Shown here piece by piece: positions 28,120 to 33,452 of a stretch of DNA of 64,000 bases. Position 1 is the stretch's first letter. Every line of letters begins with the position of its first letter. The notes below the pieces were generated by a model. The model saw nothing but the letters and a program-made list of their open reading frames with translations. It did no database searches and was not told where the DNA came from. The stretch is from contig NZ_CP049143.1 of assembly GCF_011044495.1 (NCBI RefSeq), forward strand, positions 2,790,001-2,854,000. Reading direction: 5' to 3'. Position numbers and translations under genes: made by a program. The stretch is from Roseimicrobium sp. ORNL1. GTDB lineage: Bacteria > Verrucomicrobiota > Verrucomicrobiia > Verrucomicrobiales > Verrucomicrobiaceae.

Positions 28120-28411
28120 GATTTGGCTAAGTATTGGTGTGGGCTAGGGGTGGGGGACGTCGATTCTGTAGTGGCATGCCCCTGAAATCCAGTGAAATTT
28201 CAGGTCCGGCGCGGCGGGGTGACGTTTCTTTCTATAGTGTCCAAATTCCCTCCGGATGGCGGTGTATAGCCGGGTAGGTGCAGGCAGTTTCGGGAGAAGG
28301 CATCATTCCGCTTCATCGCTGACCGGGTATTGCACCAAGGTACTAGCCTTTTTAGGTGGTGTTTCACCCGTAATCGTGGTGAGATCACCCCGAACAAAAA
28401 TCTTCACTGCT

Positions 28412-28912
28412 ATGAGACGTCGAACAGCCGTGCTCTCTGCGCTCACAGGTCTGGCATACGCAGCTGCCAGTGCAACGAAGGTAACAGCGGCGGAGGAGGG
28501 CTCCGCGGAAAATCCGGAATTGGAAAAGGTCAAGGCTCTGCTAAAAGCTCACGATGACGCTTTCAAAGCCCACGATCTCGAAGGGGTGCTCAAGACCTTC
28601 GCCAAGAAGTCTGCTGTCATGGGCACTGGTCCGGGGGAAATCTGGCACGGACCGGAAGAGCTGAAAGATGCTTACACCCACTTCTTCGAAACCTTCGACA
28701 AGGGGTCCCAGGAACTCGAACACCAGTACCAGTTCGGCGGTGTCACCGGAGAAACGGCCTGGTTCATGACCAGTGGCAATGTAACAGGCAAGTCGAAAGG
28801 CGAAGCCGTCGCATTCCCCCTGAATGTCTCCATCACCGCGGGCAAGGAGGGTGGGGAGTGGAAGATCTTCTCCCTTCATTTCTCCACGTTCGCGAGCAAC
28901 GACGCCAAATAA
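28412..28912 (+). CDS. Exported SnoaL/DUF4440-like protein
   Basis: 166 residues from the ATG at 28412, chosen because it gives a clean signal peptide (MRRRTAVLSALTGLAYAAASATKVTA-AEE) and drops 52 unlikely residues. The mature part has the NTF2-like pattern: helix KVKALLKAHDDAFKAHDLEGVLKTFAKKSAVMGTGPGEIWHGPEELKDAY, then strands WFMTSGNVTGKSKGE and WKIFSLHFSTF. NTF2-like folds bind small hydrophobic ligands or act as subunits. It ends 24 bp before the putative RiPP precursor gene, close enough to share a transcript, so it may be an export or binding factor of that system; this link is only positional. Confidence 0.8.
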   Translation: MRRRTAVLSALTGLAYAAASATKVTAAEEGSAENPELEKVKALLKAHDDAFKAHDLEGVLKTFAKKSAVMGTGPGEIWHGPEELKDAYTHFFETFDKGSQELEHQYQFGGVTGETAWFMTSGNVTGKSKGEAVAFPLNVSITAGKEGGEWKIFSLHFSTFASNDAK

Positions 28913-28936: not shown

Positions 28937-29287
28937 ATGAATGAAGAGACTTCTGGCAAGGACATGAATGAGGAGGAAGGCGGACCGGATGGCGAGAACA
29001 TGGGGCGCAGGAACTGCCTGCAAGCCATGGGCCGCTGGTCGGCGGCCGCCATCGCGGCCTCTGCTGGCGCGGTGTGGCTGGGGAGTGCGCGACCTGCCCG
29101 AGGGGCGAGTATCTGGGTGAACCGTCGCCCCGGCGGCGGCGGTTGGATCAACCGCCCTGGAGGCTGGATCAATCGTCCGGGGTGGATCAACCGTCCTGGA
29201 GGCTGGATCAATCGTCGCCCTGGTGGCGGGTGGATCAACCGGCGCGGTCCGCGAGGTAGGGCAAACAGTTGGGTGAATCGTTGGTAA
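28937..29287 (+). CDS. Putative RiPP precursor with Tat leader and seven W-(V/I)-N-R motifs
   Basis: 116 residues. Residues 1-23 are acidic (MNEETSGKDMNEEEGGPDGE), then GRRNCLQAMGRWS and a hydrophobic stretch ending ARPARGA form a twin-arginine-type signal. From residue 59 the protein is only W, I/V, N, R, P and G: motifs W-x-N-R begin at Trp 60, 70, 77, 83, 90, 99 and 112, separated by RPGG/PG/RPGGG spacers, with a terminal Trp116. Aromatic-x-Asn is a known substrate pattern of three-residue-cyclophane radical SAM enzymes (for example XncB) and short Gly-rich repeats recall GrrA of the GRRM system. A radical SAM/SPASM gene follows 2 kb downstream on the same strand. I infer Trp-Asn crosslinking in the cytoplasm, then Tat export. 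Confidence 0.75.
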   Translation: MNEETSGKDMNEEEGGPDGENMGRRNCLQAMGRWSAAAIAASAGAVWLGSARPARGASIWVNRRPGGGGWINRPGGWINRPGWINRPGGWINRRPGGGWINRRGPRGRANSWVNRW

Positions 29288-29379: not shown

Positions 29380-30462
29380 ATGCGTGGAGAGCGAGGAGAC
29401 CTGCAAAGGGATGTCATTGCCATCTGGCCTGTCCAGACGGCTCCTCACTCCACGGGCGCGAACCTGCGGCAGGATGATTCGCAGGGACATGAGCACGAGT
29501 CTGAGCATGAGCATGAGCATGAGCATGAGCATGAGCATGAGCATGAGCAAGGGCCCGAACCTTGGGTGGCGCGTGTAGAGAGCGCGGAAGAGTTGCTGGC
29601 TCTGCTGGATGCTCCGCCTCCCGGGCTGGAGTGGATTGAGGTAGCGAGCCTGTTGGAGGACCTGGCGCTTTGGAGGTCAGTCGGACAAAAAGGTGATGCC
29701 ACCAGTATGGATGTCGTGATGCAGGACCCGGCGGCGGAGTTCAGCCGTCTCTACCGCCTCGTGGATGTCACCTCTACCCGATCTGTCCGCGTGACTGTGC
29801 CGGTGCGACCAGGATTTCTAAAGGCGCTGAGGCTGGCCGCATCCATCGGTCTGGCTGTGCGCCTGCTGCCTGGACAGCCCGACAAGGCTGGCCTGGCGGA
29901 GCTGGACGAGGCGCTGTCCTTCTACCTCTACGATCCCCTGCTGGATGCGCCCGTGGAGTTTTTCCACTCGGTGTTGTCCTACTTCCACGGATACCCCTGC
30001 AGCGATCTCTGGGCCCTGCTGCAGGAGGACCCGGGTGCCTTCCCACGGTACGATGAAAAGGGCCAGGTGCGCATGCCGCGCTCGGCAGCGTTCTTTTCTG
30101 AAATGGATACCATGGCCACTCCGGCCAATTTTGTGGAGCGGCATGTGCAGCACCTGCTCGACTCCGGTGCCGAGTGTGCCCTGTGCCCATGGCTGGGCAT
30201 CTGCCAGGGCTACTTCAAGTGGCCGGATGAGAACTACTCGTGTGCCGCTGGTGTCATCCCCCTGTTTGAGCGGTTGAAGCAAACGGCCGAGGAAATGCAG
30301 GAGGCACTGGCGGCCAGCGGAGAACAGGGGTGGGGGAGGGAGGCCGGGCAGAAGCAAGAGCAGGAGCAAGAGCAGGAGCAAGAGCAAGAGCAAGAGCAAG
30401 AGCAAGAGCAAGAATATGCGGCGGTGGCGGGGACGCAGGGTGACAGACCCGTGTCAGGTTAA
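29380..30462 (+). CDS. SPASM-only (pseudo-radical-SAM) partner protein of the WxNR locus
   Basis: About 360 residues from the ATG at 29380; the frame is open to 29269, but those residues are encoded by repetitive spacer DNA. After a His-Glu dipeptide run (about residues 36-57) comes an alpha/beta region (PWVARVESAEELLALLDAPP; SVRVTVPVRPGFLKALRLAASIGLAVRLLPGQPD) resembling the last strands of a radical SAM barrel. Then comes a Cys motif C266-x2-C269-x5-C275-x12-C288, as in half of a SPASM domain. No CxxxCxxC is present, so it cannot bind the SAM cluster. A Gln-Glu run precedes the C terminus. Position between precursor and maturase suggests peptide binding or an auxiliary Fe-S role. Family not recognised. 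Confidence 0.7.
   Translation: MRGERGDLQRDVIAIWPVQTAPHSTGANLRQDDSQGHEHESEHEHEHEHEHEHEHEQGPEPWVARVESAEELLALLDAPPPGLEWIEVASLLEDLALWRSVGQKGDATSMDVVMQDPAAEFSRLYRLVDVTSTRSVRVTVPVRPGFLKALRLAASIGLAVRLLPGQPDKAGLAELDEALSFYLYDPLLDAPVEFFHSVLSYFHGYPCSDLWALLQEDPGAFPRYDEKGQVRMPRSAAFFSEMDTMATPANFVERHVQHLLDSGAECALCPWLGICQGYFKWPDENYSCAAGVIPLFERLKQTAEEMQEALAASGEQGWGREAGQKQEQEQEQEQEQEQEQEQEQEYAAVAGTQGDRPVSG
29488..29548 (+). repeat. Hexanucleotide repeat GAGCAT encoding (His-Glu)n
   Basis: About nine near-perfect copies of GAGCAT/CATGAG encode a HEHEHE run near the N terminus of the SPASM-only protein. The unit length keeps the frame when copy number changes. A His-Glu run could bind metal ions. Confidence 0.85.
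30352..30414 (+). repeat. Hexanucleotide repeat GAGCAA/G encoding (Gln-Glu)n
   Basis: Roughly ten copies of GAGCAA or GAGCAG encode a Q-E dipeptide run close to the C terminus of the SPASM-only protein. With the His-Glu run it makes both ends of the protein low-complexity. Confidence 0.85.
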
Positions 30463-30529
30463 CATTGAGAAGAATCACTCATGAAACGTCTCGTGACTGA
30501 CACACGCCATGGCGGCGGGACACGATCCC

Positions 30530-30915
30530 GGGGCGCACCACCTTGCGCGAAGCGCCTTGGAGTGCGTGTGCGAAGCACCGCTTTGGCGGGAAATTTTCCT
30601 CCCCAAGGCTCGGGGGCACTCCTGCCCATACGCATTAACCTAAACGAGAGCGTGCCGAAGCCTCCGCTGGGCAAGCACGTGTCTTTCGCTGTGGACTATG
30701 AGACACAGTCGAAGCAGTTCCGCGTACTACGCCCTTCAAGGCAAACGCCCTTCCACCAAAGAGGCGGTAGGGATGCGCTCCTGCGCGTCCGACTTCAGGC
30801 GGGCGGAGGTGGTGTGGAACTGCGGCGCGAAACGGCCTCGCCACGCGGCATCCCCCTCCGCCTCCGCCCACTATCTACGGACGCGCAGGAGCGCATCCCT
30901 ACCGTCCTTTTTTGT
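30530..30915. repeat. Palindromic repeats between partner gene and radical SAM gene
   Basis: The gap 30463-31349 has an open frame (30481-31353), but it is built of repeats. 30536-30592 matches 4930-4985. GGTAGGGATGCGCTCCTGCGC (30767-30787) is mirrored by GCGCAGGAGCGCATCCCTACC (30882-30902) with a CGGGCGGAGG / CCTCCGCC pair inside; the same family recurs at 37600-37845. I see no real gene here. Confidence 0.75.
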
Positions 30916-31113
30916 GGAGGGGCGTTAAGATGCAAAGTCAATGGTGCCTCAGGGGCTCGAGAGTGTGTTCGTTTCGACGACAAACTCGCAGCTATTGTTC
31001 CCTCCGGCACAAATAAAATCCTCAGGTTAATGCTTATGGCACTCCTGCCCCCATTCTCCGCGCAGCTTCCTGATCTCTCACTTCCACATCACCCCCAATC
31101 TCGCCCGCAGTCG

Positions 31114-31236
31114 TGCCTGCACTCGCACTCGCAGCTGCACTCGCAGCCGCACTCGCAGCCGCACTCGCAGCCGCACTCGCAGCCGCACTCGCAGCCGCAC
31201 TCGCAGCCGCAGTCGCACCCACACTCGCACTCGCAC
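31114..31236 (+). repeat. 12-bp minisatellite (CACTCGCAGCCG)n
   Basis: About seven tandem copies of CACTCGCAGCCG, flanked by degenerate CACTCGCA repeats on both sides, lie some 110 bp upstream of the radical SAM start codon. Copy-number change here could alter the leader of that gene. A short CCCTGGGT / ACCCAGGG mirror pair follows at 31240-31300. Confidence 0.85.
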
Positions 31237-31349
31237 CCTGAAAGGGTGCAGGAGCCCAGCCCAGGGTTAGCGAGCCTAAGCGAGCGACACCCTGGGTACG
31301 CCGCCCAACATCCCTCCGACCCAGAACTCCACCCCATCCCCCTGATGCC

Positions 31350-32555
31350 ATGAGCGACCGCGTCTTCAGCGTCATCCTCCTCCCGACGTCCGAGTGCAAC
31401 GTCGCGTGTGACTACTGCTTTGAGCACAAGGAAAAGCACCGCCTCTCCCGGCTCATGGTGCCCCTGCTCACCAAGCGCCTGCTCGAGCACATGAAGCACG
31501 GCGGCTATGAGGAGTGCGAGATCTACTGGCAGGGTGGGGAGGCCATGCTCATGGGGCCGCAATGGTTTGCCGATACCGGGGCCCACATGGCCCGCGCCGC
31601 GCACGAGGCGGGCAAGACCTTCACGCACTACCTCCAGACCAATCTCATCAGCTACTCCTCCGCGTGGAAGGAGGTCATCCTCGGCCTCTTTCAGGGCGAG
31701 CTGGGTACCTCCATGGACTACCCGAATCCGCACCGGAAGCTCTTCAGCGGCAGTGCGGAGGGTTACACAGACATCTGGACCAAACGACTGAAGGAGGCCC
31801 AGCGCGACGGCATAGAAATAGGCGTCATCGCTGTGCTCCACCAGGGCAGCATCGACATCGGCGCGGAGGCCTTCTACCGCTACTACACGGAGGAGCTCGG
31901 GCTGGACAACTTCCAGGTGAACACACCCTTCCCCGGAGGACCTGCGAACGAGGTCGAGGGCCAGTTCCGCCTGGACAACCGGGAGCTCGCCGCCTTCCTC
32001 GTGGAGTTGTTCGACGTGTGGATGGAGCGCGGCTTTCACTCTGGTGTGAAGCTCGGACCCTTCGATGCGCTCATGGACCATTTCCAGGGACAGGCCGCGC
32101 GCCTGCCCTGCATCTGGAAGGAGAACTGCTCGAACCAGTTTATCTCTGTTGACTCAAAGGGCACGGTGGCCCAGTGCGACTGCTGGGTCACCAGCTACCC
32201 AGAGTACTTCTTCGGGAACATCTTCCAGGAGCCCAGCCTCACCCGCATGCTGGAGACCAGCCCCGCGCGGCGCGCCTTCGTCGAGCGCCCCGGCAGGCTC
32301 GTGGAGGATGAGGATTGCCTGGAGTGCCGCTACCTCTCCATCTGCCACGGCGGCTGCCCCGTGCGCGCCTACAGCGCCACCGGCAGTCTTTTGAAGAAGG
32401 ACCCCTACTGCGAGGTGTACAAGGCCGTCTTCCACACGGCTGAGACACATGCGCAGAAACTTTTGCGAAGAAGGAAGTCATCAGCTCCACCAGATCGCGT
32501 CCAGCCGGTTCTCCCGTCCTTGGGCGGAGCGCTTGCTACCAGCCGGCGGGTGTAG
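31350..32555 (+). CDS. Radical SAM/SPASM peptide maturase
   Basis: 401 residues. The radical SAM cluster motif C16-x3-C20-x2-C23 (ECNVACDYCFEH) is followed by the GGE-type motif WQGGEAMLM, a complete barrel and a full SPASM domain: C254, C260, C276, C278, then C323-x2-C326-x5-C332-x3-C336-x17-C354, enough ligands for two auxiliary [4Fe-4S] clusters. This architecture (GrrM, XncB, FxsB, anSME relatives) is used by maturases that crosslink or epimerise ribosomal peptides, or by sulfatase maturases. No sulfatase is in the window, whereas a W-x-N-R repeat peptide lies just upstream, so I favour three-residue cyclophane formation. The last about 30 residues (KLLRRRKSSAPPDR...) are basic and unstructured. 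Confidence 0.88.
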   Translation: MSDRVFSVILLPTSECNVACDYCFEHKEKHRLSRLMVPLLTKRLLEHMKHGGYEECEIYWQGGEAMLMGPQWFADTGAHMARAAHEAGKTFTHYLQTNLISYSSAWKEVILGLFQGELGTSMDYPNPHRKLFSGSAEGYTDIWTKRLKEAQRDGIEIGVIAVLHQGSIDIGAEAFYRYYTEELGLDNFQVNTPFPGGPANEVEGQFRLDNRELAAFLVELFDVWMERGFHSGVKLGPFDALMDHFQGQAARLPCIWKENCSNQFISVDSKGTVAQCDCWVTSYPEYFFGNIFQEPSLTRMLETSPARRAFVERPGRLVEDEDCLECRYLSICHGGCPVRAYSATGSLLKKDPYCEVYKAVFHTAETHAQKLLRRRKSSAPPDRVQPVLPSLGGALATSRRV

Positions 32556-32993: not shown

Positions 32994-33452
32994 ATGAGCG
33001 CCGACTTTTCGACACCGGAACTCCCTGCCAAGGGTATCATCGAACCGCTCGGCGACGACGATCGCCTGCTGCTGAGTAGCTATGGCGAATTCCTCCCGGT
33101 GCATGAGCGCCAGGTGCTCATTGAGGAAGGCCACCAGCAGAACTCCCTGTACTACGTCATCAGCGGCACGCTGCATGCCACCACCACCCGCAGTGGTCGC
33201 CCGGTGTTGCTCGGCCGCATCGGACCGGGGGAGACCATCGGTGAGATCAATATCTTCCACCCCGGCCTGGCCAGCGCCACCGTGACCGCCATTGAGTTTG
33301 CCCAGATCTGGCGCATCGACCGCCAGAGCCTGGAGGACTTCATGAACGTGAGCCCGCTGCCCGCCTCCCACCTGCTCATCGGCATCTCCAGCACGCTGAG
33401 CCGCCGTCTCCGCGAGACGAACGACAAGGTGGCGATGATGCACCAGATCTAA
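32994..33452 (+). CDS. Cyclic nucleotide-binding-domain protein without a DNA-binding domain
   Basis: 152 residues that form one cNMP-binding jelly roll: FLPVHERQVLIEEGHQQNSLYYVISGTL, then GRIGPGETIGEINIFHPGLASATVTAIEFAQIWRIDRQSLEDF and a C-terminal helix. The phosphate-binding cassette reads GETIGEINIFHPGLASAT, a diverged version of the CRP-type GExxGE...RxAT, with no Arg before the AT. It may therefore bind another ligand or none. No helix-turn-helix, kinase or channel domain is attached. It starts 438 bp after the radical SAM gene, with a mirrored repeat between, so co-regulation is doubtful. Confidence 0.85.
   Translation: MSADFSTPELPAKGIIEPLGDDDRLLLSSYGEFLPVHERQVLIEEGHQQNSLYYVISGTLHATTTRSGRPVLLGRIGPGETIGEINIFHPGLASATVTAIEFAQIWRIDRQSLEDFMNVSPLPASHLLIGISSTLSRRLRETNDKVAMMHQI

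Follow-up and report, generated by a model that had tools for sequence, protein, structure and literature searches.

What does a protein without a radical SAM (rSAM) cluster motif contribute when its gene lies between those of a peptide precursor and an rSAM/SPASM maturase? The question is raised by a locus of Roseimicrobium sp. ORNL1, here studied within the window, the whole stretch of 64,000 nucleotides that was analysed (NZ_CP049143.1, the single contig of a 7.96 Mb genome, positions 2,790,001 to 2,854,000). A first-pass annotation made from the letters of the DNA described the protein, hereafter the partner, as a "SPASM-only" partner of the maturase and possibly a pseudo-rSAM subunit. This earlier reading was largely right. 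The genes lie on the plus strand in the order SnoaL-like protein, precursor, partner, and maturase (Table 1).

Table 1. Features of the operon, with positions counted from the first letter of the window.
Feature	Position	Strand	Details and evidence
SnoaL-like protein, first operon gene	28256..28912	+	Conserved part from about 28412; Pfam SnoaL_3 5.6e-12
Precursor peptide	28937..29287	+	Seven W-x-N motifs from 29114, preceded by a Tat-like leader (RRNCLQAMGRWS...)
Pseudo-rSAM/SPASM partner (feature under study)	29380..30462	+	360 aa; conservation, fold models, Cys motif
6-bp tandem repeat encoding the EHEHEH tract of the partner	29488..29549	+	Genome-specific; not in homologues
Conserved partner core: barrel from beta2 on, then half-SPASM	29551..30330	+	AlphaFold2, VIA-align
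C-x2-C-x5-C-x12-C, predicted Aux II-type [4Fe-4S] site (C266, C269, C275, C288)	30175..30243	+	Invariant, 15 homologues
6-bp tandem repeat encoding the EQEQEQ tract of the partner	30353..30413	+	Genome-specific; not in homologues
Partner-maturase insertion, 887 nt	30463..31349		Dispersed foldback (MITE-like) repeat and 12-bp tandem repeat
Radical SAM/SPASM maturase	31350..32555	+	CNVACDYC at 31395-31418; SPASM Cys set

The open reading frame of the partner is confirmed, and its ATG is backed by the orthologue in the congeneric genome G063, which has the same MRGERGDL start. The window protein shares 33-52% identity with 15 sequences from three phyla. Between the window and G063, the partner core has a dN/dS of about 0.15 by YN00 (dN 0.174, dS 1.151) and 0.20 by NG86, and purifying selection acts on it. 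The His/Glu and Gln/Glu tracts at the two ends of the protein are products of 6-bp tandem repeats peculiar to the ORNL1 genome, and for this reason the N-terminal and C-terminal tracts were ruled out as metal-binding parts. Pfam and NCBIfam scans of the window partner and 15 members gave no family model, only scattered weak matches to SPASM, HxsC, and DynA. A search of PDB sequences with the partner profile gave nothing credible, and a plasmid search returned no match.

The Cys motif described in the first-pass annotation is present at residues 266, 269, 275, and 288. The same four Cys occur without exception in 15 of 15 sequences, which come from Verrucomicrobiota, Eremiobacterota, and Proteobacteria, so the motif is not a product of chance. 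CX3CX2C, the SAM cluster motif that marks a radical SAM enzyme, is absent from the window partner, as had been noticed, and from all 14 partners checked. The four Cys had been taken for the "first half" of the SPASM pattern, and here another assignment applies. In rSAM/SPASM enzymes, Aux II is held by the C-x2-C-x5-C triplet together with the last Cys, and the intervening Cys is a ligand of Aux I (PMC12093266); in TrnC, C437, C440, C446, and C464 serve Aux II and C449 serves Aux I (PMC12093266). The maturase of the window has both auxiliary sites complete (C254, C260, C276, C323, C326, C332, C336, and C354). The partner quartet is the counterpart of the maturase Aux II ligands C323, C326, C332, and C354, whereas the place of the Aux I ligand C336, judged by spacing, is taken in the partner by an invariant Phe (residue 279), which an invariant Lys follows. 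By comparison with the TrnC ligand scheme and the full maturase set, the partner thus retains a complete Aux II ligand set and no longer has the ligands of Aux I. Of the seven-Cys SPASM arrangement (Aux I plus Aux II, TIGR04085), the partners hold the Aux II set only, and the TIGR04085 model matches three members, with a best E of 0.052. Invariant residues other than Cys are also present in the barrel and the SPASM part.

The fold of the partner alone was predicted in two AlphaFold2 models. Model 1 covers 29551-30330 of the window with an alignment of 15 sequences (pLDDT 88.1, pTM 0.84), and model 2 covers the full-length L032 homologue with 14 sequences (pLDDT 92.1, pTM 0.88). Foldseek alone returned mostly generic TIM barrels and no match with E < 0.001; rSAM/SPASM enzymes came out on top only when Foldseek's own list was re-aligned with VIA-align. 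After re-alignment, model 1 matches ChlB (Z 12.5, rmsd 3.6, 239 residues) and the sulfatase maturase anSMEcpe (Z 11.5, rmsd 3.8, 239 residues), followed by an unrelated aldolase (8.8). Model 2 matches ChlB (Z 13.1, rmsd 3.9, 245 residues, 1-258 on 1-375), anSMEcpe (Z 12.8, rmsd 3.5, 240 residues), and TigE (Z 11.0), with designed barrels next (9.1). VIA-align Z values below 8 (about 13 for helical bundles) may reflect a mere common arrangement; the partner is a beta/alpha fold with near-complete coverage, and its top rows all belong to one superfamily and stand above the unrelated rows. Profile-profile comparison also aligns the C-terminal region of the partner with the maturase (P 89.9, E 1.7e-6). 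Because the Foldseek E-values are weak, the case for an rSAM/SPASM fold depends on the combination of the VIA-align ranking, the profile match, and the Cys pattern.

The predicted structure is a partial (beta/alpha)6 barrel, matched by ChlB, anSMEcpe, and TigE over nearly its full length. The earlier view that segments upstream of the Cys motif form the end of an rSAM barrel was correct as to the barrel but not its extent, since both models contain nearly the whole of it; "SPASM-only" is therefore too narrow. Together with the missing CX3CX2C, the fold supports the proposal of a pseudo-rSAM protein. In the L032 model, residue 13 is the last of beta1 and residue 25 the first of beta2, whereas in anSMEcpe (counted on a sequence alignment) the beta1 region at about 7-10 is followed by the three cluster Cys (15, 19, and 22) and by a GGE motif whose last residue is 67. 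By this difference in spacing, the partner lacks the SAM-cluster loop and helix alpha1 and retains beta1 and the rest of the barrel. Loss of beta1 altogether, a reading of model 1, which is cut at beta2, was ruled out by the full-length L032 model, which keeps this strand. Both Eremiobacterota partner copies seem to begin at beta2.

The adjacent maturase falls by sequence in the rSAM/SPASM superfamily (anSMEcpe, 9.3e-28; ChlB, 1.6e-11), and its CX3CX2C and SPASM Cys are invariant among homologues. It forms a separate subfamily, because it scores far under every NCBIfam family cutoff except that of the generic SPASM domain. The protein starts 15 residues ahead of CX3CX2C, which leaves no room for an N-terminal RRE, and therefore another protein may bind the leader.

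The 17 precursors compared carry 4-10 W-x-N motifs each, and these hold 95 of the 110 core Trp; x is mostly I or V, and mostly R comes next. The first-pass annotation regarded the peptide motif as new in this setting. However, enzymes that form three-residue cyclophanes are known to act on W-x-N: OscB links C7 of Trp to C-beta of Asn (PMC11002830). With an aromatic-x-Asn type precursor and a SPASM rSAM maturase, the locus has the gene content of a triceptide (3-CyFE) system, and by analogy the maturase probably staples the W-x-N repeats into small rings. The leaders share RR-x2-L-x3-G-[KR]-W-S, in which R24, R25, L28, G32, W34, and S35 are invariant, and an A-x-A-like end. Two precursors reach 16.4 and 16.6 bits with the Tat signal model TIGR01409, just under its cutoff of 16.7.

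The position of the partner between precursor and maturase, noted for the window at the outset, is the same in 16 genomes of Verrucomicrobiota, Eremiobacterota, and Proteobacteria when all sources are merged, a count that includes some maturases cut by contig ends. A precursor homologue is found in every intact locus, and across relatives the partner gene directly adjoins that of the maturase, often with an overlap. With one genome per species scanned, 84,980 species yielded 15 partner loci. In a sample of 189 genomes of the order, the partner occurs in nine and the maturase in eight, and all eight maturase genomes have the partner. Partner and maturase distances are correlated (r = 0.90, 0/5000 permutations, n = 14). 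The partner diverges faster, with a mean identity of 50% vs 69% for the maturase. The expected co-occurrence of the two genes thus holds for every maturase genome of the sample and for the 16 adjacent pairs, but not for an orphan and a decayed partner. The orphan, in a MAG (L020/L035; L020 7320-8144), keeps the four Cys; neither a precursor nor a maturase was found close to it or elsewhere in the MAG. The decayed extra copy (L039 5900-6760) has next to it a precursor and a SnoaL-like gene that both look intact, but no maturase, and its genome retains an intact operon on another contig (L062). G317, a candidate for a partner-less maturase from the phylum search, was rejected, as it looks like an ordinary anSME-like protein and has no W-x-N precursor among its neighbours.

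The SnoaL-like protein completes the set of four conserved operon products; its gene lies upstream in the same place in 15 of the 16 operon genomes. On the 3' side of the maturase, a cNMP-binding domain protein (32994-33452) is 98% identical in G063 and was not found in the other loci. It matches the bacteriocin-transport-associated family TIGR03896 below the cutoff of that family.

Several known systems resemble parts of this operon. The multiple cyclophane synthase ChlB (PDB 9gm3, 9gmc) is the best structural match of both partner models and is cited in PMC12636437 as forming cyclophanes on RiPP precursors. Like the partner, its C-terminal sequence has C-x2-C-x5-C ... C without the C-x3-C ligand. 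Unlike the partner, ChlB has CX3CX2C and is catalytic, and the partner profile gives no sequence-level match to it. According to the title of PDB 9gm3, ChlB was solved in complex with the leader of its own precursor, so that leader binding does not generally depend on a partner. The family pseudo_rSAM_GG (TIGR04150, which we take to be the same family as IPR026418) is found in Bacteroidales RiPP clusters. Its members are rSAM-like, lack the SAM cluster, and come with an rSAM enzyme and a precursor. The same traits characterize the ORNL1 partner, although the precursor and the taxa differ. TIGR04150 (cutoff 250 bits) has no match in the ORNL1 genome at E 0.01 and none among 15 partners at E 1. 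The Bacteroidales pseudo-rSAMs are proposed partners, none of which had an experimentally assigned function in a 2023 survey (PMC10352776).

In the thuricin CD system, TrnC and TrnD are likewise two rSAM/SPASM-type proteins of one cluster and form a tight complex in which one protein is essential for the chemistry and one has a truncated SPASM. However, TrnD still cleaves SAM, unlike the partner, both Trn proteins have N-terminal RRE-type domains, and the product is a sactipeptide. TrnC/TrnD is a precedent for two-subunit rSAM chemistry with one essential radical site. The triceptide systems GrrM/OscB, XyeB, FxsB, and YhhB share with this operon a SPASM maturase and an aromatic-x-Asn type precursor. 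The cutoffs of GrrM/OscB (TIGR04261) and GrrA (TIGR04260) are not reached, with 75.7 of 310 bits for the maturase and weak matches to several precursors of at most 20.6 of 31 bits. To our knowledge, none of the triceptide systems described so far has a pseudo-rSAM subunit, and an exact-phrase literature search for pseudo-rSAM returned nothing.

With slightly more confidence than doubt, we infer that the pseudo-rSAM/SPASM partner is a non-catalytic subunit that associates with the maturase and keeps hold of the precursor during three-residue cyclophane formation. The fold, the loss of the SAM site, the invariant Aux II Cys, and the co-inheritance come from sequence or computation; the further steps are predictions. 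The partner would descend from an old duplication of an enzyme of the cyclophane-forming or anSME-like kind. It would have shed the SAM-cluster loop, helix alpha1, and the Aux I site while keeping the barrel scaffold and one Aux II-type site, predicted to be occupied by a [4Fe-4S] cluster. In complex with the active maturase, it would bind the precursor, probably at the invariant leader segment, and keep the W-x-N repeats in place while the maturase works. The maturase would generate a 5'-deoxyadenosyl radical and crosslink Trp to the C-beta of Asn within every W-x-N motif, so that the repeats become a series of three-residue cyclophanes. Tat would then export the product, which would be cleaved after A-x-A. 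The orphan partner, the ChlB-leader structure, the faster divergence of the partner, and the insertion in ORNL1 count against this subunit model.

The main rival, which we regard as unlikely, holds that the partner is an electron-transfer subunit whose cluster passes electrons to or from the SPASM clusters of the maturase, reactivating it after each crosslink, and does not hold substrate. The complete four-Cys site is among the best-conserved parts of the partner, and the many crosslinks of each precursor imply many turnovers; PapB needs intermolecular electron transfer between its turnovers (PMC10470005). However, general redox proteins or small molecules meet this need in PapB (PMC10470005), it is difficult to see why a protein that only carries electrons would retain the entire barrel, and the maturase already has both auxiliary sites. 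A role after crosslinking is improbable. The partner would then escort the modified Tat substrate and keep it folded, or hand it to export with the SnoaL-like protein, as the Tat-like leaders and the SnoaL-like gene of the operon might suggest; but its fold is of the maturase type, not that of a Tat chaperone, and its gene lies against that of the maturase. More doubtful still is that the partner remains an enzyme with another, unrecognised activity, such as a second peptide modification, that uses the barrel cavity and the cluster. Its invariant non-Cys residues would fit such an activity but could equally be scaffold or binding residues, and neither a known catalytic motif nor a family match was found. 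A decaying, functionless duplicate kept near the maturase by chance is very improbable and already disfavoured: catalytic residues are lost, ORNL1 has low-complexity insertions, and one extra copy has decayed, but dN/dS is low, the Cys are invariant over three phyla in an operon of constant order, and the decay goes with the absence of an adjacent maturase in a genome that keeps a full operon.

If the partner is a precursor-holding subunit of the maturase, the operon could represent a new RiPP class, in which Tat-exported W-x-N cyclophanes are made by an obligate rSAM/pseudo-rSAM heterodimer whose pseudo-rSAM subunit recognises the leader instead of an RRE, and in which the whole cassette was transferred between phyla. 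This wider proposal is tentative, and we hold it to be less likely than not. The operon would add a triceptide-like family with a Tat-type leader to those described. Pseudo-rSAMs recur in RiPP clusters, and this one comes with a clear substrate motif, well-understood maturase chemistry, and a compact operon in several genomes, so that the role of a dead rSAM subunit is directly testable.

The insertion between partner and maturase is particular to ORNL1. It is missing from G063, where the two genes overlap by 4 nt, and in relatives they are adjacent or overlapping. Its foldback repeat has 87 matching places in the ORNL1 genome (both arms and strands counted), many of them 200-450 bp, and forms a hairpin at about 30744-30926 (z -11.8). 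The 12-bp tandem repeat (31124-31229) gives a PHSQ-type reading in the spacer and is absent in homologues. Because the insertion splits partner from maturase, the operon may be less tightly coupled in ORNL1; its coding parts are still under selection.
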